64,000 bases of DNA, from the NCBI GenBank assembly GCA_022661535.1, contig JAKULF010000009.1:2790001-2854000 (forward strand). Reading direction: 5' to 3'. This stretch comes from Eutypa lata. Its lineage: Eukaryota; Ascomycota; Sordariomycetes; Xylariales; Diatrypaceae. Positions within the stretch are counted from its first letter, which is position 1. Each line of letters opens with the position of its first letter. Below, in pieces: positions 43,761 to 53,392 of the stretch. The position numbers were made by a program, and so were the translations under genes. Below the pieces are notes generated by a model. That model worked only from the letters and a program-made list of their open reading frames with translations. It ran no database searches and was not told where the DNA came from.

Positions 43761-45939
43761 CTCAGTCGCTGTGTTAACGAAAGAGGAGGCAAGAAAAGGC
43801 GAGACGATGTTCACAGGAAGGAAACAAAGTGAGTGTTAAAACTTCGCTGTACGTTAGAGCAGCGTGGTAGTTGGCAATATGTCTCAAGCGCATCTCATCT
43901 CATCCATACAGTCTTGTACTTATAGATGATAGGGAAGGGAAAGGGGTTACATTCCAGCAGCAGCTCTGCCCATATCGTACCAAGCGGAGTGATAATAATC
44001 GCTGTTGTCGGTAACCACGAGCACTATCCGTTATTTCCTTAAACAACCTCGCCGCGTGAGGTAAGATAACATGGTATATCATATGTCAATCATAATGCAG
44101 CGTGGATACGACCACGGCACATGGTCATTGCATGGTTTAATTCCAGGGCCCTGAGCTTCAACACAGACCTCTAACTATATGGTAGCGCCAACAACATTCT
44201 AGATGTGGGGCGTTCAAGTAGCAATTAGGTATACTCTTCGGCCCAGGCCCCGGTTATGTTACAGGGACGCGGGGAAGAGAGGGGATAGCAATCACGATCT
44301 GTAACGGCTCTGTCACCAACTGCATAAGATAAGGAATATCACGCGATATATTGTCTGATTGTATGTGTCAATATGGCGCAGACGACGCTCGCATCAGCGT
44401 GGCCCGTAGGTTTCCTCACCATTACATGGTTTGGTCCAGAATACTTGACTATATTATAGAGTCGCTTATGGCTGTGAACACGAACCTTCATATACCAACA
44501 CTACTTTAGAAGGTAATCGATCACCCATTCAGGGATCTTCGTTCAAGACGTAACCGCTAACTATATATGGCCATTTGGGTTGGAAATGTAGAATGCCGAA
44601 CTCGTAACTACGGCGAAGGCGATGTCGTTATTGCATTACACGATAGTTATCTCTTCTCAACGATTTATTTTCCTCGAGGTTTCAAACCCGCACCATGATA
44701 TCACGATCCCCTCCTTATACTACAAAGGTCTTTGAAATCCGGACAGCGCTAACTGACTAGCTAGCTATATAAAAACAATAAAAGAACAGCCCTGGCTTCC
44801 CCTAACCACGACCGTGGTTTCTGTCAATCCGTAATTGGTTGCATAACAACCCACCTGCAGGTGAAAACCAGATAAGCGAACCGATCATCGGTAAATATTC
44901 TCTCCGTATGTGTTGTCCGCATTTAAAAAGTGAGACCGTATTGCATGTGGTTGGTTAATAGGATTATCCAAGCTCATGGATTTACATAATTTCTTAAGAC
45001 ATCCTATTTAACATACCTAGTCAGATACCTACACGGTATTCAGGGATTCTCAGTGTCTAAATCTGGACAAACAGGGACTACATAGATAGACCGAGTATGA
45101 TCGCTTTAAATGATTAATGGGTACTTATATAACCAGTAGCTACAGGGATGGTTGATCCATATGCTTAACTTGGATGGTTGTTTATAGAGTTCCCAAAAAT
45201 TAGTCTCGGTCTTCCATACGCCCTCATTGGAGTATTATACATGCTGACTCACGTACGTTTGTAAAAATAAAAATAAAGCTCATAGCTGTGCATGAAACAT
45301 TTTCCACGCCCCTAAATTACCTGAAACTTACTTTGCCAGAGACTAACTCGTTGAGCAAATCGCAGGTAGGTATATAGATATATATTCTCTTGCAGAGATC
45401 GTAGCTGCCCTGCTAATTAAATTCAAAAGTGGTCATCACCCTTGTCAGCATCCCCGAGGATCACCAACATGCTGAAACCAACTGCAGATGTACAAATAGG
45501 AAAAGAGGCCGTGGTAGATGTGTATGTTTCGTATAGCTAGCGCCCTCCGCGTGTCTATCGTGGTTCCTAGTCAATATTGTGTGTAGTTGTACACCTACGC
45601 ATCATGTATGCCGCCCCATTCTCACCTTTTCTTCTATCTTCTTTCAACGTCGGCTCCTACGAACCCTTTTTTGTCCTGCCATATCTGTTGGTCTTACCTC
45701 ATCTCGTGGCTGTTTTAGAAGGTCAAAGTTCTCTGTTACAGTGGCTTCAAGGACCCTGTCGTATATACCGTAGGACGTCGAGCGAGGATCGTGTGAGATA
45801 TAATCCAGCTGCACCGCAACTCCGGTCATATTTTGAAGCATAGATTCCTCTATACCTATAACGCCTCAATTTGTCAAGTTGCTAACCCGCCAGTATCTTG
45901 GACGGCCGGACCGGAGAAAAATCAGAACCACATCACAAT
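43761..45939. other. 2.2-kb divergent intergenic region in the accessory zone
   Basis: Between the start codons of the P450 and the rhodopsin-domain gene. It is AT-leaning with no supported exon. A frame at 45577-45843 looks unrelated to any family. Confidence 0.5.
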
Positions 45940-47413
45940 ATGGCAGACAGCGGCAAGGGTCGTATGGCGTTGATCGTCATGTGGACGTCAACTGCCATCA
46001 CACTCGTTTTTGTCGTCATTCGACTCTTCACCAGACACTTTATCGTGCACCAACTCGGAGCTGACGATGCCGCGTACTTTGTTGCTGGGGTAGGCTTTCT
46101 AGATACGTGTCACAACAATCTTCGTTAGGTCTAACGTGTGAACTCATAGTTGTTTCTCCTACTTTACACCGCATTTGTCCAGGTGGCCCTTCCATATGGC
46201 TTTGGTGAGTCTATGGATGACCTAGAGCACGACAATGCCGTACAAGCAATTAAGTGGGAGATGATCGGTCAGACATTTGCCGCCCTAGGCATGTCTATTG
46301 CCAAGTTATCGATGGGACTCTTCCTACTCCGCCTCGTGGTGAACAAATGGCATCGCATCGCAATATGGTCTATGATGCTTAGTCTGTTTGGATGTTCATG
46401 CCTCATAGCTGTCGTCTTCTGGGTTCAGTGCATCCCCGTGTAAGTACAAAGAACAAGTCGATATCTTGTCTGTCTCTCTCCGTTATAGAACCTTCTGCAC
46501 GACATGATGAAAAATGTAAATACTAACTTGTTTTTACTAAAAAAGACAAGCCATATTCGACCCATTACTTAGGCCAATGGCTCGGTGTGAAGTCCCCGTC
46601 ACCCCGTTTGGAGTATTACTTGGAGGTAAGCCTTCCGCCAACTCCCGCAATTTCTTTCTCAGCATGCTGATCCGGTGGTGTTCTTCGACAGTGTGGTGCA
46701 TCGTGGCAGATTTCTTCTTCGCTATCTTCCCACCTATCGTAATCTGGGGCCTTCAGATGAAAAGAAAGGAGAAGATTCTCGTAGCTTCTAGCATGAGCAT
46801 AGGAGTATTGTAAGCTAGCCTGACCTCATGGTTTACTTTCAAGTTTAAGCAGGCTGACAAGATCACCACAGGGCAGGAATTGCCGGGATTTTCCGCACGT
46901 ATGAGGTGGCCGTAGGCTTCACAACCAACTACACCCGTAAGTTTCTACCAGGCTGCCCCTTTCACCCTCGAAATTTACCTAAAACCTGTTCTTGTGATAG
47001 GGGATACTGTCGCCTTGATTGTCTGGTCCGCTGTCGAAATGGCTGTTACTATGATCTGCAACGGCATCCCCATTATCCGGCCGTTGTATCGCCGTATTGT
47101 TCGTGGCTACGGGCAACAGTCTAGTGACGCGCCCTATTACAAGCACGGAGAGGGAGGTAACAGCGCGGGCTATGAGTTGGACAACACGATGAGGTTTGGC
47201 AAGGACAGAAGCAAACTTACAGGGAACGTTTCGAGGCTGGGCATGCCTTTCCAAACGGTTACAGATATCCAAACGTCAAACCAGAACAATAACAGTGACG
47301 AGAATATCCTGAACCCATGCCACATGCATGCTATTGAGGCTGGCCATGGTGGACAATCAAGAAGCGGAATCCATGTGACGGATGATATCAGGGTGGAGTG
47401 GAATGATAAATAA
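45940..47413 (+). CDS. Rhodopsin-domain (PTH11-like) seven-helix membrane protein
   Basis: Fungal integral membrane protein of the rhodopsin-domain/SAT4 type, candidates for receptors or transport-linked functions; the ligand is unknown. Six exons: 45940..46089, 46150..46439, 46546..46625, 46692..46809, 46872..46936 and 47001..47413, giving 371 aa. Seven hydrophobic helices are visible, beginning ALIVMWTSTAITLVFVVIRLF, AAYFVAGLFLLLYTAFVQ, TFAALGMSIAKLSMGLFLL, IAIWSMMLSLFGCSCLIAVV, VWCIVADFFFAIFPPIVIW, ILVASSMSIGVLAGIAGIF and VALIVWSAVEMAVTMICNG. Family marks are GADDAAY after helix 1, LAGIAGIFRTYEV, and WSAVE...IPIIRPLYRR. A hydrophilic C-terminal tail of about 100 residues follows. Intron 2 (46440..46545) is nearly the same sequence as an intron of the FAD-oxidase gene. 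Genomic neighbours are the P450 and a secreted protein. Confidence 0.88.
46440..46545 (+). mobile_element. Introner-like intron, copy 1 (in rhodopsin-domain gene)
   Basis: A complete 106-nt spliceosomal intron (GTAAGT donor, ACTAAC branch, AAG acceptor). It aligns end to end with the intron at 52058-52161 in an unrelated gene, at about 79 % identity by hand. The shared core is GTTATAGAACCTT and later GATGAAAAAT and ACTTGTTTTTAC. Similarity stops at the splice sites. Confidence 0.75.
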
Positions 47414-48194
47414 ACAAGTTAATATTCTAATGGAACGCAAAACGACGAAAAGTCATGAAGACCCTTTAATTCGTATGGTGTATTAATGTATATACATAAA
47501 TGTTGTTTTTTTATCATAATAGGCACATCCTATGTATTTATCTGCTAATATAATGTTTTAAGGAACGCGCGATATAATCCCTCTTCATATTCTTCGCTGT
47601 GTTATTTTGAAACGAAGGCATTTTAAGTGAATCGGCTGTACACTAGGATGTATTGTTTATCAGGTTATTATTTTTGATACAATGTTTAATATACTATTGT
47701 CAGCATATGGGTCGGTCATATCAATGCCCCTGGGAAGCTTGTTGTATTCCCAGGAATCAACATGCTTGCAAGTTAGCTAGTTATAGTGCACTTCTTGTTG
47801 TGAACGGCTTCGCATTGTCCGAATCGCTCCCACTGTCTCTTGGTGTTAAAGCACCACTTTAGTACACTACACACTACACACCTACTGACAATTGTGTCAT
47901 TATCTATTGCCTACTGTGATATTGCCTACTGTATATTATCCTATTATCCATAGGTTATTGTACTATTGTGCGGGACACGGTCCAGAGAGTTCTGCCCGCA
48001 GTAAAATCTATAAATACCTCCCAACTTTCCTGTCCCTTTTCCTTCTTCGACCAGTTAGCCTTTACCCTCGCCTTGCCGACACTCAGCACATAGGTTCATC
48101 ATCTCTGAACTCTTCGGAAGACCACATAACGCTATTCGCCTACGCACCCGGGAAGTAATCAACGGGAACCCACCCCAGGAGATAAGCAGTCACC
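47414..48194. other. Intergenic region upstream of the secreted-protein gene
   Basis: About 780 bp, AT-leaning, with TATTGCCTACTGT-type short repeats near 47900-47940. No gene is supported. Confidence 0.5.
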
Positions 48195-48629
48195 ATGAAG
48201 GTAGAGTTATGATAATTACCAAGTTGTAGAGCATAACTAATAGGGACGCTCTAGTTTTCCGCAGCTCTCTCCCTTTGTTTGGCCACCACTGCCATGGCCT
48301 TGCCCACAGACCCTAGCAGTATCACTATTCCTACCGACATCGATGCTCCGAGCAACGACACTGCCGTGACCAACAGTACCGGCATCGCTATTCCAGTCAA
48401 CGAAACTGCTCTAGCCGGCAGTCCTAATGGCGATCAATTGTCAGCAGATGTCTGGAGATACATATTCCGTTGCCACGACTCTTTCAGACGCGTACGATGC
48501 GTCAACTACTTCGATTCCTACTGCACCAATGAGGGATGGGTTAGCACCGACGCGCCGTGGTACTGCGTTACTCCTCACTGCTATTGCGTCGGATATGATG
48601 CCATATCGTGTCCCGGCGGAAGTTGCTGA
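48195..48629 (+). CDS. Small secreted cysteine-rich protein (candidate effector)
   Basis: Two exons: 48195..48200 (ATG AAG only) and 48255..48629, with a 54-nt intron (GTAGAG, CATAACTAAT, CTAG), giving 126 aa. Splicing at 48254 creates a textbook signal peptide, MKFSAALSLCLATTAMA, which no unspliced frame gives. The mature part starts with a Thr/Asn-rich segment carrying NDT, NST and NET, possible N-glycosylation sites. A compact domain with eight cysteines follows (FRC, VRC, SYC, WYC, PHCYC, ISC, GSC), enough for four disulfides. No known domain is recognised. Size, secretion and cysteine content fit fungal effectors or antimicrobial-type proteins, but this is inference. It lies in the accessory region near a RIP block, a common effector setting. 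Confidence 0.75.
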
Positions 48630-50395
48630 ATAACCAGAGTGACAGATGGCTGGAGTAGTAGGATTAGCCTAGTGCGTAGCAGGGCAACCGCTGAGACTCT
48701 GGTATGGTTGAGAACTAATTTCAGTTCTGTCGACAGACTCGGTAATAATATGGTGGCCTAAATGATGGTTGCTGTGGGATATGGATACCTTAGGGCTTGA
48801 TGGATGTACTAGGAGACCTAACTAGAGCAACAATTCACCCACAGTTTATGGCCCAGTTGACGTGTTCCTCCTCGTGAATGGTATGAGCGAGATCCTCAAC
48901 GCCTATGAAGGTGTTCTATATGATGGGCCACTGGGTTTAGTTTCCGGCTCTGGATCAGGACAGCGATGACAGTCCAGTCAGCATGTGTGACGACTACGTA
49001 TCGATGTTGCAGCAAAGACGTCCTGCTGAGCCTTAATGGTTTATTATTGTGTCATATTGTATGCTACTGGAAGCAATTATTAGTTTCTGAGAGGGTAGAT
49101 TAAGAGTTTCTGTGTATATTGAGAATATCCCTGATTTCAAGTGAAGGAATGCTATCAAGTGGCCTATGAGCTGGATTCGCGATCAAATTGACTGTAAATA
49201 CTATGATTTCGTCCACAGACAGATGCCTCAATTACAGGAGACTACATCGAAAATACCGCCAGCGACTCATACTAACTACTAACCAGGGACAATATACTAG
49301 CAACACCATATGCTTCAGAATTTATCCATCGGATTTCGTAGTTTCTGACGTACTAGAACAGTTATGCTCGAAGACAATTATGTAGTAGTGTCCACCACCA
49401 AACCGGCATTGGAGTGCTTTGGCTGTTAGTTACTAGATAGACCAAGCTAGACCTTGTGTCGCGTCAGTGCCGCATTATTCTTGTGCGAAAATCACCCGCT
49501 AGTTCCGGTATTAATCACCAGTCTACAGACTAAAACTGAACATGGATTACCGCTAGCAGATGTCGATCGGGGACCAAGACATGCGTATAGCGTCGATCAC
49601 ATATTACCTTGACTGTAATATTTCAGGGTTAATTTGGCAAATACACACTACGCGAGGAAAGCGGAATATGAATGAATACGAAGTACGAGACCGAAAGCGA
49701 ATGGTAATGTCAACACTTCCACTCGTGACTTGGTAATTGCCCCGCCTACTCTACCCAGTCCATATACGACATAAACGACAGCGTATGCGCGTCTATCTGC
49801 AGCTCAGCCACATTCCGCCGACACGCACATGCCTTTCAGAACGAATAGTCCTCCGCCGTCCCGGATCGTACTTTTTTAGACTATACAATAATTAGTGCTC
49901 AGCAGTCACCTCAGTAGACCCTTTCTTGCAGGAGCTTAGCCGAGAAAACGAAGCTTATCAGATCCGAGATTCGCTAGATTAGCGTTCTTTCGCTCTTCCA
50001 ACTATATCCTTTGCTCCCGCAGCGGGTCCAAACATTACCCATTCTACAATTTTATTCTATAAGGACAACGATACTTTCTCTCGGTATACCCAAGAGTATG
50101 GTCTATTTATTCTGTGATGAAACATTTTCCTGGTCTTTTAAAACCGACACCTGTCTTGTTAAAAAGCGCATAGGATGTATTAACGCTGAGGTATGTTGAC
50201 TGCCTAGTCTACGTAGGCTGGGCACAAAGCGAGCTAATGTCAAGAGCAGGTATTGTCTATTTATATCCGATATACTCACTTTTCGCAAGACTTATAGCAC
50301 AACCGGGATATACAACACTAAATGCAGGGCACCAATGGACCTCAAGGTATCTCTATTGATGATTCTTGGCGGGCGGGAGTACCCATAAAAGTAAG

Positions 50396-50530
50396 TGTGA
50401 CGGAACAGAATGCAAAGACTTAACTACCGATGCACTACGAAAGTATAATGTTGTTAGCTCAGGAGCTAGCCATCTTGCATAGCCTTATAGTAGACTGCCA
50501 CTTAGAGGTAGCTCCAGTAATCAATAACAG
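50396..50530. repeat. Dispersed repeat with palindromic core, copy B
   Basis: The core 50449-50489 matches 38855-38895 at 34 of 41 positions. The central inverted repeat TAGCTC-AG-GAGCTA is kept. The terminal hairpin of copy A is not preserved as a perfect palindrome. Confidence 0.6.
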
Positions 50531-50666
50531 CATTAGATGTACCGAGACTGCTATACGAAGTAACGATATGTTTTAATGACACCAATGCAAGCTATTCGTG
50601 CGGACCCATTAGTGAGTAGATAAATACATATCCTTTTATTTCAAACCTGTAATTAGGTAGGTGAGG

Positions 50667-50731
50667 CAAGAGCGAGAACGAGAGGGGGGGCGAGAAGAGC
50701 GAGAAGAGCGAGAGGGAGAACGAGAGCGAGC
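50667..50731. repeat. Purine-rich GAGAAGAGC-type tandem repeat
   Basis: The plus strand is almost all purine apart from single C bases: GCGAGAAGA units repeat imperfectly with a G7 run, about 190-250 bp upstream of the FAD-oxidase start codon. Confidence 0.75.
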
Positions 50732-50916
50732 TGCAAACCCTTGCAAGTCGGCGGTGCTCATTTCTAATTGTGCTGATCACAGGCTTCCAAATTACAGCAG
50801 TTCCTCGTCATGGCTTCCAAAATTAGGTGCCTGGCAAGTATATTAAAGGGCGCTCACGTACGCTGTACAGTTGGGACGCAATCTACCATCTTTATCAAAC
50901 CTGGACCTACGCAAAC

Positions 50917-52882
50917 ATGACGAACTTTCATCTTTATTGGGCATCAGTGCTAGCTCTGCTCCTTGGGCTCCAGAAGTGTCTGGCAAACACTGCACCACAA
51001 GGCTGCTACAAGCTGCACACCGACGACGACTGGCCCTCGTTCCAGGAGTGGGAAAATGGAATCCCCGGTGTGGTCAAAGAGAACAACAGCGACAGGTTTG
51101 GAAGCTTACCCGACTATCGTATCCGCGCAAGGAGCTACACCGATATTCAAGCCGCAGTCAAGTTTTCCGCATTACACAAGATACGACTATCCGTTATCAC
51201 GACTGGCCATGATCAGATAGGGCGCAATATCGCTGGCTCGGGCCTGATAATTGACCTTTCGCTACTGCAGGCTGCTCGGGTACTGGAATCTTTTAATGCT
51301 ACGATGGAAGGCGTCCAGAGCCTCGAGCACAATGAGAAACCACAAACAATTGTGCCTACACCTGGTGTTCAAGCTGCTGTTACATTCAACCCAGCTTTCA
51401 ATGGATTAGAGCTTAACAAAGCTCTTGACTTATCGGGCTTGTTCGTCGTGGGTGGTACTTATGGTAAGTAACCCTGTGAATTCCTTCAAGCTTCAAACCA
51501 GGAGCTAAGTCAAACTAGCCGGAGTAGCAGCCGCTGGAGGTTTCGGTCAGAGTGGAGGCTATGGACCTCTCAGTGCCCAGTACGGCCTAGGCGTCGATCA
51601 GTGGCTGGAGGCTAAGGTTGTCACTCCTGATGGTCAGCTATTGGTCGCCAATGAGGTCTCTAACCCTGAGCTCTTCTGGGCTATCCGAGGCGGGGGCGGG
51701 AGCACCTTTGGCGTTGTCGTTGAAGCCACGTTCAAAGCGCATCCCAGAATACCTTTACTTTCCTTTTATTGGTATATCAACTCCACATTGTCTACCAATG
51801 ATACAAGCCTAGATGGCCACACGCCAACCAGCGAAGCAATGGCATATCTGTTTTCAGAGCTACCAGAACTTCACAGCAAGGGGGTCTCAGCATATCTCTA
51901 CGTCTTTCCTGACAATGTCAGGTGCCACGCCATTCACCCGGATCAGTTGGCTAATGTTGACGACGCGAATGCTATCTGGGGGCCAATTCTGACCACAATG
52001 CAGTCCTTCCCGGGCATGGGTCTATTCCAGAGCAAACATTTTCACTTCCCCAGCTATGTGAGTACTAAAAACAAGGAAATACCTTGTCTTTCTCGTTCTG
52101 TTATAGAACCTTCCACAAGATGTGATGAAAAATTATATACTGACTTGTTTTTACCAAATAGCCAGAGTTCTATGACACCACCTATGGACCATCGAACGAT
52201 CCACCAATTCCTACAAACCACGGAAATGTTCCATATGACAGCCACTTGTTGAGCGCAGACCATTTGCGAAGCCCAGATCTCACTCACGCCCTCAGCGGAA
52301 CAGGGGGGTCGTACGGTGCATTGATGACTTCCCCAGGGATAACAGTTGGTGACGGAAAGGATACCGCTGCTAACCCTGGTTGGAGGAATGCTACTCTCTT
52401 ATTAAACGGCTTCAAAAGTAACACTACAAATGTTGACGGCTTACGAGAGCTGGCACCTGGCATGGGGACATATATCAACGAGGTTCAAACTCCACCATAC
52501 TGGGCCACACTAGCAGTACATCTGGCTAACAATCCATTAGGCTAGCATTCATGAACCAGACTGGAGTAATAGTTTCTGGGGGGCGAATTACCCGCGTCTA
52601 TCTACATTCAAATCGCTGATCGATCCGGACATGGTATTCTGGGTAAGCCCGGGTATCAACGCTGATTATATGCAAGTCATTGATGGCCGAGTTTGTCGAG
52701 TCCAACCTACTCCGATGGAGCCATCGTTGTACGCGCCTCGTGTAGAAAGGGTTGTTGAAGCTGACTTGGTTAATGATCGGGATTTTGTATTTGGGAAGCA
52801 AGAGCTGATAGGCGCTCAATTTCCAGCCCCTGGGGAATTAATCGGGCTACAGCCAGATGTATGGGACAATAGACTAGTTTAA
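50917..52882 (+). CDS. Secreted FAD-linked oxidoreductase (berberine-bridge-enzyme type)
   Basis: Flavoprotein oxidase of the FAD_binding_4 plus BBE class. Four exons: 50917..51463, 51519..52057, 52162..52482 and 52541..52882, giving 582 aa. A signal peptide is clear (FHLYWASVLALLLGLQKCLA). The FAD domain has the histidine loop TTGHDQIGRN with His98, the usual covalent FAD site, then GGTYAGVAAAGGFGQSGGYGPLS and WAIRGGGGSTFGVV. The second usual attachment residue, Cys in GGTC, is Tyr182 here, so FAD is probably held by one covalent bond only. The C-terminal BBE motif spans intron 3: YINE/ASIHEPDWSNSFWGANYPRL. Apparent stops in each open frame all fall in introns, so the gene looks intact. Intron 2 (52058..52161) matches an intron of the rhodopsin-domain gene. 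It directly abuts the RIP block. Confidence 0.9.
52058..52161 (+). mobile_element. Introner-like intron, copy 2 (in FAD-oxidase gene)
   Basis: A 104-nt spliceosomal intron (GTGAGT donor, ACTGAC branch, TAG acceptor) that aligns over its full length with 46440-46545. Both insert cleanly between codons or within one codon of unrelated coding sequences. Confidence 0.75.
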
Positions 52883-53392
52883 GGATGAAGTTAAGCAAAA
52901 TATAAGATTAAACTATAAGTTTAAGGATTATCAGAAACTTTTATAAGCTTTAAAACGAAATATAATATAAATATAAAATAAAATAACTTAAAAAATATAT
53001 TAATTTTAAATACGTAAAAAAATATTAATAAATTTTATAATATATATTTAATATTTTTATATTAAATATAAAATTATTTTTAAATTTTTTAAATAAAGAA
53101 TTTATTAAATTAAAAAATTAAAATTTAATATTATATTAATTTATATAATATTTTATATATAATTAAATTATTATTATAAATTAAATTAAAAATATATAAT
53201 TTAATTTTTAATTTTTAAATAATATATATAATAATATTATTTTTAATTTTATAATTTTATATATAATTATAATTAATTTTTTAAAATATTAAATATTAAT
53301 ATTTATTATTATATTTTTATATATTTTTAAATTAAAATTAAAATGAAAATTTATTAATTTATATAAATATAAATATTAAATTTTTATTTATA

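Follow-up and report, generated by a model that had tools for sequence, protein, structure and literature searches.

Two look-alike introns as members of a predicted introner-like family in a fungus of the Xylariales

The window, a stretch of 64,000 nucleotides from a Sordariomycete of the order Xylariales (by one gene closest to the Diatrypaceae), carries two genes that are each interrupted by one of a pair of look-alike introns (Table 1). The pair had been pointed out in an initial annotation and was found as described there: aligned from donor to acceptor the introns are 79.8% (about 80%) identical, the shared blocks named in the annotation are present, and the flanking exons are unrelated, the likeness stopping at the splice sites. 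After removal of the first intron (L001) in silico, a match to PF20684 (fungal rhodopsin domain) spanned the exon junction, and removal of the introns from the second gene gave the frame of a berberine-type FAD oxidase of 582 aa. GTTATAGAACCTT and ACTTGTTTTTAC occur exactly in both introns, yet singly they are unremarkable within the window, where with up to two mismatches 2 matches were found for GTTATAGAACCTT (2.5 expected from shuffling) and 14 for ACTTGTTTTTAC (9.4 expected). A close kinship of the two introns was rejected, since each has nearer relatives, with about 87% identity, among the other copies described below. A search of the same genome for paralogues of the two window genes returned only the genes themselves.

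Table 1 Positions of the two introns and their host genes in the window
Feature	Position	Strand	Remarks
Introner copy 1 (L001)	46440..46545	+	106 nt, phase 2, GTAAGT...AAAAAAG; in fungal rhodopsin-domain gene
Donor GTAAGT, copy 1	46440..46445	+	
Branch element TACTAAC, then 3' near-terminal inverted-repeat arm TTGTTTTTACTA, copy 1	46521..46539	+	Pattern match C9:2836521-2836539, 0 mismatches
Acceptor AAG, copy 1	46543..46545	+	
Introner copy 2 (L013)	52058..52161	+	104 nt, phase 0, GTGAGT...AAATAG; in berberine-type FAD oxidase gene
Branch element TACTGAC and 3' inverted-repeat arm, copy 2	52138..52156	+	Pattern match C9:2842138-2842156, 2 mismatches
Acceptor TAG, copy 2	52159..52161	+	
Gene hosting copy 1, with a fungal rhodopsin domain	45940..47413	+	Both ends approximate
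Gene hosting copy 2, an FAD-linked oxidase	50917..52882	+	582 aa once spliced; last base computed from the 582-codon frame
Further introns of the FAD oxidase gene	51464-51518 (55 nt), 52483-52540 (58 nt)		Both shorter than copy 2

A chance likeness of the two introns was rejected as well, the similarity over the full intron length being much greater than chance would give. A blastn search of the same genome with the whole 106-position intron gave 39 other matches with E-values from 3.5e-26 to 4.6e-13, 38 of which span 92 or more positions of the query, and three pattern searches of the genome gave 75, 51 and 30 matches against 1, 0 and 0 with the reversed pattern, some of the 75 being the second arm of one element. 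These many further copies support the proposal, made in the initial annotation, that the introns belong to an introner-like family. The family occupies 103 places in the 54.5-Mb genome; three copies are present twice in a segment duplicated between contigs C6 and C11, which leaves 100 distinct insertions. Rows without an element were dropped before counting (L099 and L114, with two mismatches each, L128, L129, L131 and L135), the double cluster at C6:3859040/3859126 was counted as one element, and a first estimate of 104–130 copies predates the removal of false clusters. Two further points of the annotation did not hold. Rather than being near-identical, the copies have a mean pairwise identity of 80% and a mean identity of 88% to the consensus, the best pair reaching 95%, in a comparison of 57 introns (55 copies and the two halves of L042, leaving aside the 43 copies fetched later and L077); and rather than being a speciality of accessory regions, they are found on 18 of the 29 contigs, and conserved genes, CWH43 among them, carry copies too. 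Judged from sequence, both window introns belong to a single introner-like family, whose predicted canonical introns are about 104 nt long and have at least 100 distinct insertions in this fungus, a probable member of the Diatrypaceae.

For 97 of the 100 insertions sense splice sites were assignable, so that the copy reads as an intron bounded exactly by its own donor and acceptor, and the modal copy length is 104 nt. The acceptor was taken to be the first AG past the branch region; manual placement was used for five donors and twelve acceptors, and a local motif for the donor of L138. The set of 97 analysed here leaves out L042 (a stwintron), L077 (antisense) and L108, which has neither a clear acceptor nor a long open frame. 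Retention of the intron would give a stop or a frameshift in 96 of the 97 copies, and under a codon-usage model the best-scoring of the six frames was a sense frame in 92 of them (66 of the 71 outside the training set), the five without a top-ranked sense frame being L005, L024, L072, L100 and L104. In a Pfam scan of 12 selected spliced proteins, the domain match spanned the junction in nine, albeit by two residues only for L032, and in none of the 120 CWH43 homologues listed does a gap fall less than 9 residues from the L002 junction. Removal of the copies by splicing is therefore predicted, as deduced from reading frames and homologues; in Hypoxylon, related short introns were found to be spliced in 11 of 12 cases by reads or RT-PCR (PMC8469720).

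Compared with its reverse complement, the consensus shows 68.5% identity (z 5.0). It folds into a single hairpin of −19.6 kcal/mol (z −3.9), the near-terminal stem of which comprises 17 positions, 16 pairs and one mismatch. The inverted repeats are near-terminal in that they begin about 8 nt inside each consensus end. Symmetry of the single copies is below that of the consensus, with z above 2 in 43 of 57 and values of 0.7 and 1.4 for the two window copies, and an unbroken near-terminal stem of at least 10 pairs is present in 36 of 97 copies. Compensatory changes in the stem were not found among the 57 introns, so the stem appears to be maintained by nothing in the inserted copies. From the gappy alignment A2 no consensus structure was obtained with RNAalifold; the covariance model R1 is therefore sequence-only and was not used further, and the hairpin was derived from the consensus sequence. 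The centre of the consensus, TATAGAACCTTCTACAAG, is conserved, as are its ends, and TAGAACCTTCTA is found there within two mismatches in 82 of 97 copies.

Splice signals are present on either strand of the element: in reverse complement, its branch site reads as a donor and its 5' arm as a branch site plus acceptor. One copy, L077, lies in antisense and corresponds exactly to a 79-nt intron of the opposite strand. Its limits are the antisense splice sites and not the ends of the DNA element, the sequence outside those sites being missing. L077 is a single case; L128, considered as a second antisense copy, was rejected as a chance match. Another of the 100 insertions, L042, is a [D1,2] stwintron made of two family members. 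Two junction patterns run over the genome for further stwintrons gave 1 and 0 matches; more divergent junctions may escape such patterns.

Insertion is seamless, without target-site duplication, and favours a pyrimidine|A step. No significant direct repeat was found in 1444 placements over the 97 insertions (best p 0.005, uncorrected), and 32 of the 97 sites are Y|A against 10.5 expected. CA sites are enriched (15 against 7.0 expected) whereas the complement TG is not (3 against 5.4), an asymmetry that is modest (binomial p 0.03); considered base by base, the signals (T at −1, A at +1) are strand-symmetric. The Y|A preference is absent among copies ending in CAG (4 of 28). The proto-splice context AG|G was found at none of the 97 sites and AG| at three, and G at +1 is depleted (12 against 27.2 expected). 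In RNA, YA steps are those cleaved most readily.

Taken as a whole, these features are probably best explained by an introner-like family that is copied via excised intron RNA, which we infer to be the likeliest mechanism. The copied unit would be the excised intron RNA, whose hairpin may keep the two intron ends together and shield the RNA from decay. The RNA would be joined into a coding-strand nucleic acid of a transcribed gene and copied into DNA, and the new intron would be spliced out thereafter. Master copies would be strongly symmetrical, and inserted copies would decay through ordinary mutation. The signs of an RNA step are indirect; selection by itself could purge antisense copies, and inverted repeats with a hairpin fit a DNA element, too.

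The near-terminal inverted repeats and the self-complementary consensus are also what a non-autonomous, MITE-like DNA transposon would bring along, as proposed for algal introners, with a transposase cutting and pasting the inverted-repeat ends and splice sites lying in the element or in the target-site duplication; its marks are present in 78.5% of the non-ascomycete introner families where both marks could be judged (survey PMC9860276). Such an origin is unlikely for the family described here: target-site duplications are absent in the 97 insertions, each of the 97 analysed copies has its donor and its acceptor within the element, so that neither is taken from the target, and the antisense copy lacks exactly what lies beyond its antisense splice sites. 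Moreover, a clear intergenic copy was not seen in the whole-genome pattern search, and an indirect search for an autonomous element, through the surroundings of arm matches, showed that all 30 fetched ones (1.5-kb flanks) sit in a whole or nearly whole introner; among the remaining arm matches, L099 and L114 are without an element. Six copies are uncertain as genic (the five without a top-ranked sense frame, and L108), and the lack of intergenic copies is thus not fully established. Seamless, sense-strand insertion within genes, as observed, is predicted by the model preferred by earlier authors for fungal introners, as recounted in PMC8469720, in which the spliceosome reverse-splices the intron lariat at proto-splice sites in RNA or DNA. 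We regard it as rather improbable, since the proto-splice context is avoided, as judged from the AG|G, AG| and +1 counts above, and since the model does not require symmetry. The spliceosome could still act in the joining step, provided that the choice of site is not its own.

That the introns are independent and old, or that one intron was spread by gene or segmental duplication or by gene conversion, is extremely unlikely. The segment duplicated between C6 and C11 holds three copies in both places, but it accounts for these doubled copies only, and segmental duplication was rejected as the source of the family: the exons beside distinct copies are unrelated and similarity stops at the splice sites, paralogues of L054 and L075 in the same genome are uninterrupted at the intron position, and in two paralogous sugar-transporter genes whose introners occupy homologous positions, the introns are not sisters (74% identical) and the exons are 38% identical. 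The conserved centre would agree with introns kept alike through a function, for example as hosts of a small RNA or a splicing regulator, but this is very unlikely, too. No Rfam match was obtained at E up to 0.1 in the window region 45900-53000, on which a hosted RNA was rejected, the stem is without compensatory changes, and the mean identities in the 57 introns, 80% for pairs of copies and 88% against the consensus, are as one would expect if the copies had decayed in star-like fashion after being made. In viral contigs, three 18-base matches (11.5–11.7 bits) were obtained, none of which extended into an introner, and a second pattern gave no match.

Returning to copying via excised intron RNA, a more specific form of it is put forward tentatively, as a possibility that we would rather doubt than assert: the intron copies itself via its own excised RNA from either strand, the YA target lies on a single-stranded coding-strand nucleic acid, and [D1,2] stwintrons are dimers. 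The piece spliced out would then be the piece inserted, so that an antisense copy would be trimmed to its antisense splice sites, and the [D1,2] stwintrons of related families would arise through insertion of one copy into the donor of another. If so, the published order, in which the stwintron comes first and the short symmetrical intron follows by deletion, would be reversed, and the family would offer a simple origin of stwintrons.

The origin of new introns is an old open question, and well-sampled systems are few. About 100 insertions of one short hairpin intron in unrelated genes are a useful case for such studies, and the target preference, the antisense copy and the two-member stwintron each bear on the choice between DNA transposition, reverse splicing and capture of intron RNA during repair. 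What appears to be new is the family itself and its apparent host, together with the prevalence of the single unit, the bias in target choice, the antisense copy and a stwintron built of two members.

Compared with known systems, the introns resemble the introner-like elements of the Dothideomycetes (Capnodiales) in being canonical, present in many copies in unrelated genes and longer than ordinary introns, as well as in predicted stable structures and parallel gains at like positions (PMC4457414). These elements belong to another fungal class and were compared by description, not by sequence; the AG/GY preference reported for them, as cited in PMC8469720, is not seen here. With DNA-transposon introners of algae and others the family shares inverted repeats, many copies and intron function, but unlike these, as they are outlined in PMC9860276, it has no target-site duplication, no splice-site co-option and no clear extragenic copies. 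In the same survey, ascomycete families are reported to have neither TIRs nor TSDs, whereas the family here has near-terminal inverted repeats. In kind, the introns are introner-like elements and symmetrical (stw)introns like those of the Hypoxylaceae and Xylariaceae, which come from the same order, are multi-copy at unrelated sites and near self-complementary, and insert seamlessly without target-site duplication. In the Xylariaceae, branch site and acceptor are likewise 14 nt apart with a near-terminal repeat between them; here the distance is exactly 14 nt in 46 and 14–15 nt in 65 of 97 copies. The ends are similar, GTACTAAAAAC and GTTTTTACTA here versus GUAUAAAAAC and GUUUUUAUAC in the two families, a comparison of ends and architecture and not of full sequences. 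The main unit there is a [D1,2] stwintron (examples of 184, 185 and 207 nt), whereas here it is the single unit, with one stwintron among 100 insertions; in Hypoxylon CO27-5, short symmetrical introns number 10 copies, plus three unique to a sister strain, and were read as deletion products. The central palindrome WTTCTAGAAA of the Hypoxylon group is absent here in its exact form (0 of 97) and present within two mismatches in 41 of 97 copies. A site bias is not reported for the two families, and a genuine intron is reported for the coding strand only, in contrast to the Y|A enrichment and the one antisense copy found here. The family in the present genome suggests that symmetrical mobile introns reach beyond the Hypoxylaceae and Xylariaceae.

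The two introns of the window (see table) were confirmed at the positions given in the initial annotation. They are 79.8% identical over the aligned positions, in agreement with the likeness of about 79% claimed there, and the exons around them are, as had also been claimed, unrelated. The host gene of copy 1 encodes a fungal rhodopsin domain (PF20684) whose Pfam match spans the intron junction; the host gene of copy 2 encodes a berberine-type FAD oxidase, the frame of which amounts to 582 aa after splicing and the remaining two introns of which have sizes of 55 and 58 nt. The short blocks common to both introns, each taken alone with up to two mismatches, are no rarer than chance within the window; it is the whole-length likeness, and not the short blocks singly, that counts. 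For the FAD oxidase, the top-scoring sequences come from Hypocreales (Clonostachys and Fusarium, 75%), and those of Xylariales rank lower (Pestalotiopsis, 67%); this gene is therefore uninformative on the affinity of the host, and the pattern could reflect a patchy family or possibly horizontal transfer. An imperfect GA-rich repeat was seen upstream of its gene.

A search of the 54.5-Mb assembly (29 contigs, the window being in C9) by blastn with copy 1 revealed at least 39 further copies, with E values between 3.5e-26 and 4.6e-13 (the scoring covered 40 of 66 candidates). Their identities were 76–86%, except for L026, which has an internal deletion and measures 86 nt (89% over 65 positions). 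Three pattern searches gave 75, 51 and 30 hits, the reversed patterns 1, 0 and 0. Merged with the blastn matches these formed 98 clusters, which came down to 95 places as one element had been counted twice and two clusters were without an element. Two more patterns and one extended stretch added twelve further candidates, with the element in eight of them, giving 103 places. Since three of these are second copies within a near-identical inverted duplication shared by contigs C6 and C11, 100 distinct insertions remain. This number is a lower bound; overlaps among the first three patterns suggest 104–130 copies, by an estimate that predates the removal of the false clusters. The C6/C11 stretch is 99.7–100% identical over 3 kb at three points with the spacing held over ~ 332 kb; either a large segment was duplicated recently or two haplotypes were assembled. 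The window observation is real and the proposed introner-like family holds, but the copies proved neither near-identical nor, in the strict sense, recent as had been proposed; nor was the proposed location in accessory regions borne out, though four copies, one of them on the opposite strand, fall in 58 kb near the C9 end. The chance of such a cluster anywhere is ~ 0.02 under uniform scatter, tested after the cluster was noticed. Two pairs on C18, the members of which lie a few hundred bases apart on one strand, probably each reflect two insertions into a single gene.

Positions of introner copies and associated features (window positions or contig positions)
Feature	Position	Remarks
Copy 1 (L001)	window 46440-46545	106 nt
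Copy 2 (L013)	window 52058-52161	104 nt
FAD oxidase gene	window 50917-52882	host of copy 2
GA-rich repeat	window ~50670-50735	imperfect
Four-copy cluster	C9:2784412-2842158	starts just outside the window, reaches window 52161
L042	C2:3701609 region	GGT-starting [D1,2] stwintron; two family members, 104 and 106 nt
L077	C6:552696	antisense to its gene; sense splice sites absent
L108	C8:5608447-5608545	
C18 pair	C18:745264-745367 + 745577	one strand
C18 pair	C18:972289 + 972709	one strand
Inverted stretch	C6 ~1.19-1.53 Mb, C11 ~3.09-3.43 Mb	doubled copies L021/L023, L024/L025, L034/L038

Sense splice sites were assigned in 97 copies. Retention of the element would lead to a stop or frameshift in 96 of them. 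When codon usage was scored in all six frames, a sense frame ranked first in 92 copies (66 of the 71 not used for training), the exceptions being L005, L024, L072, L100 and L104. Twelve spliced proteins, picked as recognisable-looking or important here, were scanned against Pfam: a domain match crosses the junction in nine (in L032 with a margin of just two residues), in L042 and the FAD oxidase the domains lie away from it, and the L077 protein gave no match. The host of L002 is a CWH43 orthologue, and none of its best 120 of 1989 homologues shows a gap within 8 residues of the junction. Among the 120 homologues listed for the FAD oxidase, 110 cover the intron position and 25 of those are gapped there. 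Among the matches listed for the CWH43 protein, Diatrype stigma came first (79%), followed by two from Monosporascus (78% and 75%) and, at 71–73%, by Biscogniauxia and Hypoxylaceae; on this one gene, the host is closest to Diatrypaceae (Xylariales). L108 is not among the 97: its donor and branch element are good, but it lacks a clear acceptor and a long open frame, and it may be broken or lie outside a gene.

The first 55 copies are 82–147 nt long (mode 104) and use the donors GTAAGT (43), GTGAGT (7), GTACGT (3), GTCAGT (1) and GCAAGT (1). Acceptors in the 97 copies are TAG (35), AAG (34) and CAG (28); the branch element ACTAAC is found in 61, and it precedes the acceptor triplet by 14 nt in 46 and by 14–15 nt in 65. 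Folding of the consensus yields a single hairpin of −19.6 kcal/mol (z −3.9 relative to dinucleotide shuffles), and the consensus shares 68.5% identity with its reverse complement (z 5.0). This symmetry is weaker in single copies, with z > 2 in 43 of 57 introns (55 copies and the two halves of L042) and values of 0.7 and 1.4 in the two window copies. The near-terminal stem spans 17 positions, of which 16 pair and one is mismatched in the consensus, and includes the branch element; no compensatory double changes were found in it among the 57 introns. We read the symmetry as a property of copied masters which is lost in inserted copies, in agreement with the view proposed for Hypoxylon (PMC8469720).

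Evidence for gain came from paralogues. The sugar transporter gene carrying L054 matches 18 further places of its genome (E ≤ 1; 10 at E ≤ 0.01), of which 17 are uninterrupted across the insertion point; the nearest (71% identity) holds one stop codon. The nearest paralogue of the AMP-binding enzyme with L075 is likewise uninterrupted (63% identity, open frame of 340 aa). A paralogous transporter gene carries L057 at the same ATC|AACTAC codons as L054. Because the two introns are only 74% identical and apart in the tree, and the exons share 38% identity over 180 nt, they are independent, parallel insertions at a homologous codon boundary.

No significant excess of target-site duplications was found in 1444 placements of 3–6 nt words in the 97 copies (best p 0.005, uncorrected). 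Against a background of phase-matched positions from the host exons themselves, insertions favoured T|A (17, 3.4 expected) and C|A (15, 7.0 expected); Y|A was found 32 times (10.5 expected), a number reached by none of 5000 draws. None of the 97 insertions falls in AG|G, and G was rare at +1 (12, 27.2 expected). Y|A occurred in 16 of 34 AAG- and 12 of 35 TAG-acceptor copies, without excess in the CAG class (4 of 28). Unlike CA, its complement TG was not enriched (3, 5.4 expected), an asymmetry (binomial p 0.03) which hints, weakly, at a coding-strand target in single-stranded form. The last exon base ahead of the intron is G in 12 of the 28 CAG copies but in none of the 34 AAG-acceptor copies.

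The antisense copy L077 reads CGGCAG|GTTAGT...TATTAACTTGTTTTTAG|GACCGG on the gene strand and is a phase 0 intron of 79 nt that consists of the family core in reverse complement and is flanked by 88 and 195 open codons. Its donor derives from the reverse complement of the branch element, its branch and acceptor from the 5' arm. The outer element parts are missing and, therefore, the insertion ends are the antisense splice sites. As far as a single case can be relied on, the inserted unit is what had been spliced; alternatively, a full antisense insertion was followed by exact trimming. Antisense signals in combination (GTNAGT, a branch-like element and HAG) are present in 23 of the 97 copies.

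Introners as such are already known; among the open-access papers searched, we found no link of introners or stwintrons to Eutypa or Diatrypaceae. Two-step removal of the stwintron L042 leaves a HET-domain protein frame of 381 + 272 open codons, compared to 382 + 33 after one-step removal; junction patterns revealed no further stwintrons in the genome. Of the two members of L042 the inner one has diverged further, and at 74% to the consensus it stands farthest from it among all 57 introns; this alone does not show the order of arrival. According to PMC12403724, such stwintrons are the main repeated form in Hypoxylaceae and Xylariaceae (288 in 14 taxa); the short symmetrical introns have been interpreted as stwintron deletion products. 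The published stwintron HCOc066A has 48-nt end repeats with 102 nt between. In E. lata, in contrast, there is one stwintron among 100 insertions, and a dimer of the symmetrical unit would match the published layout. Because of both, the order from single unit to stwintron, opposite to the published one, is worth testing.
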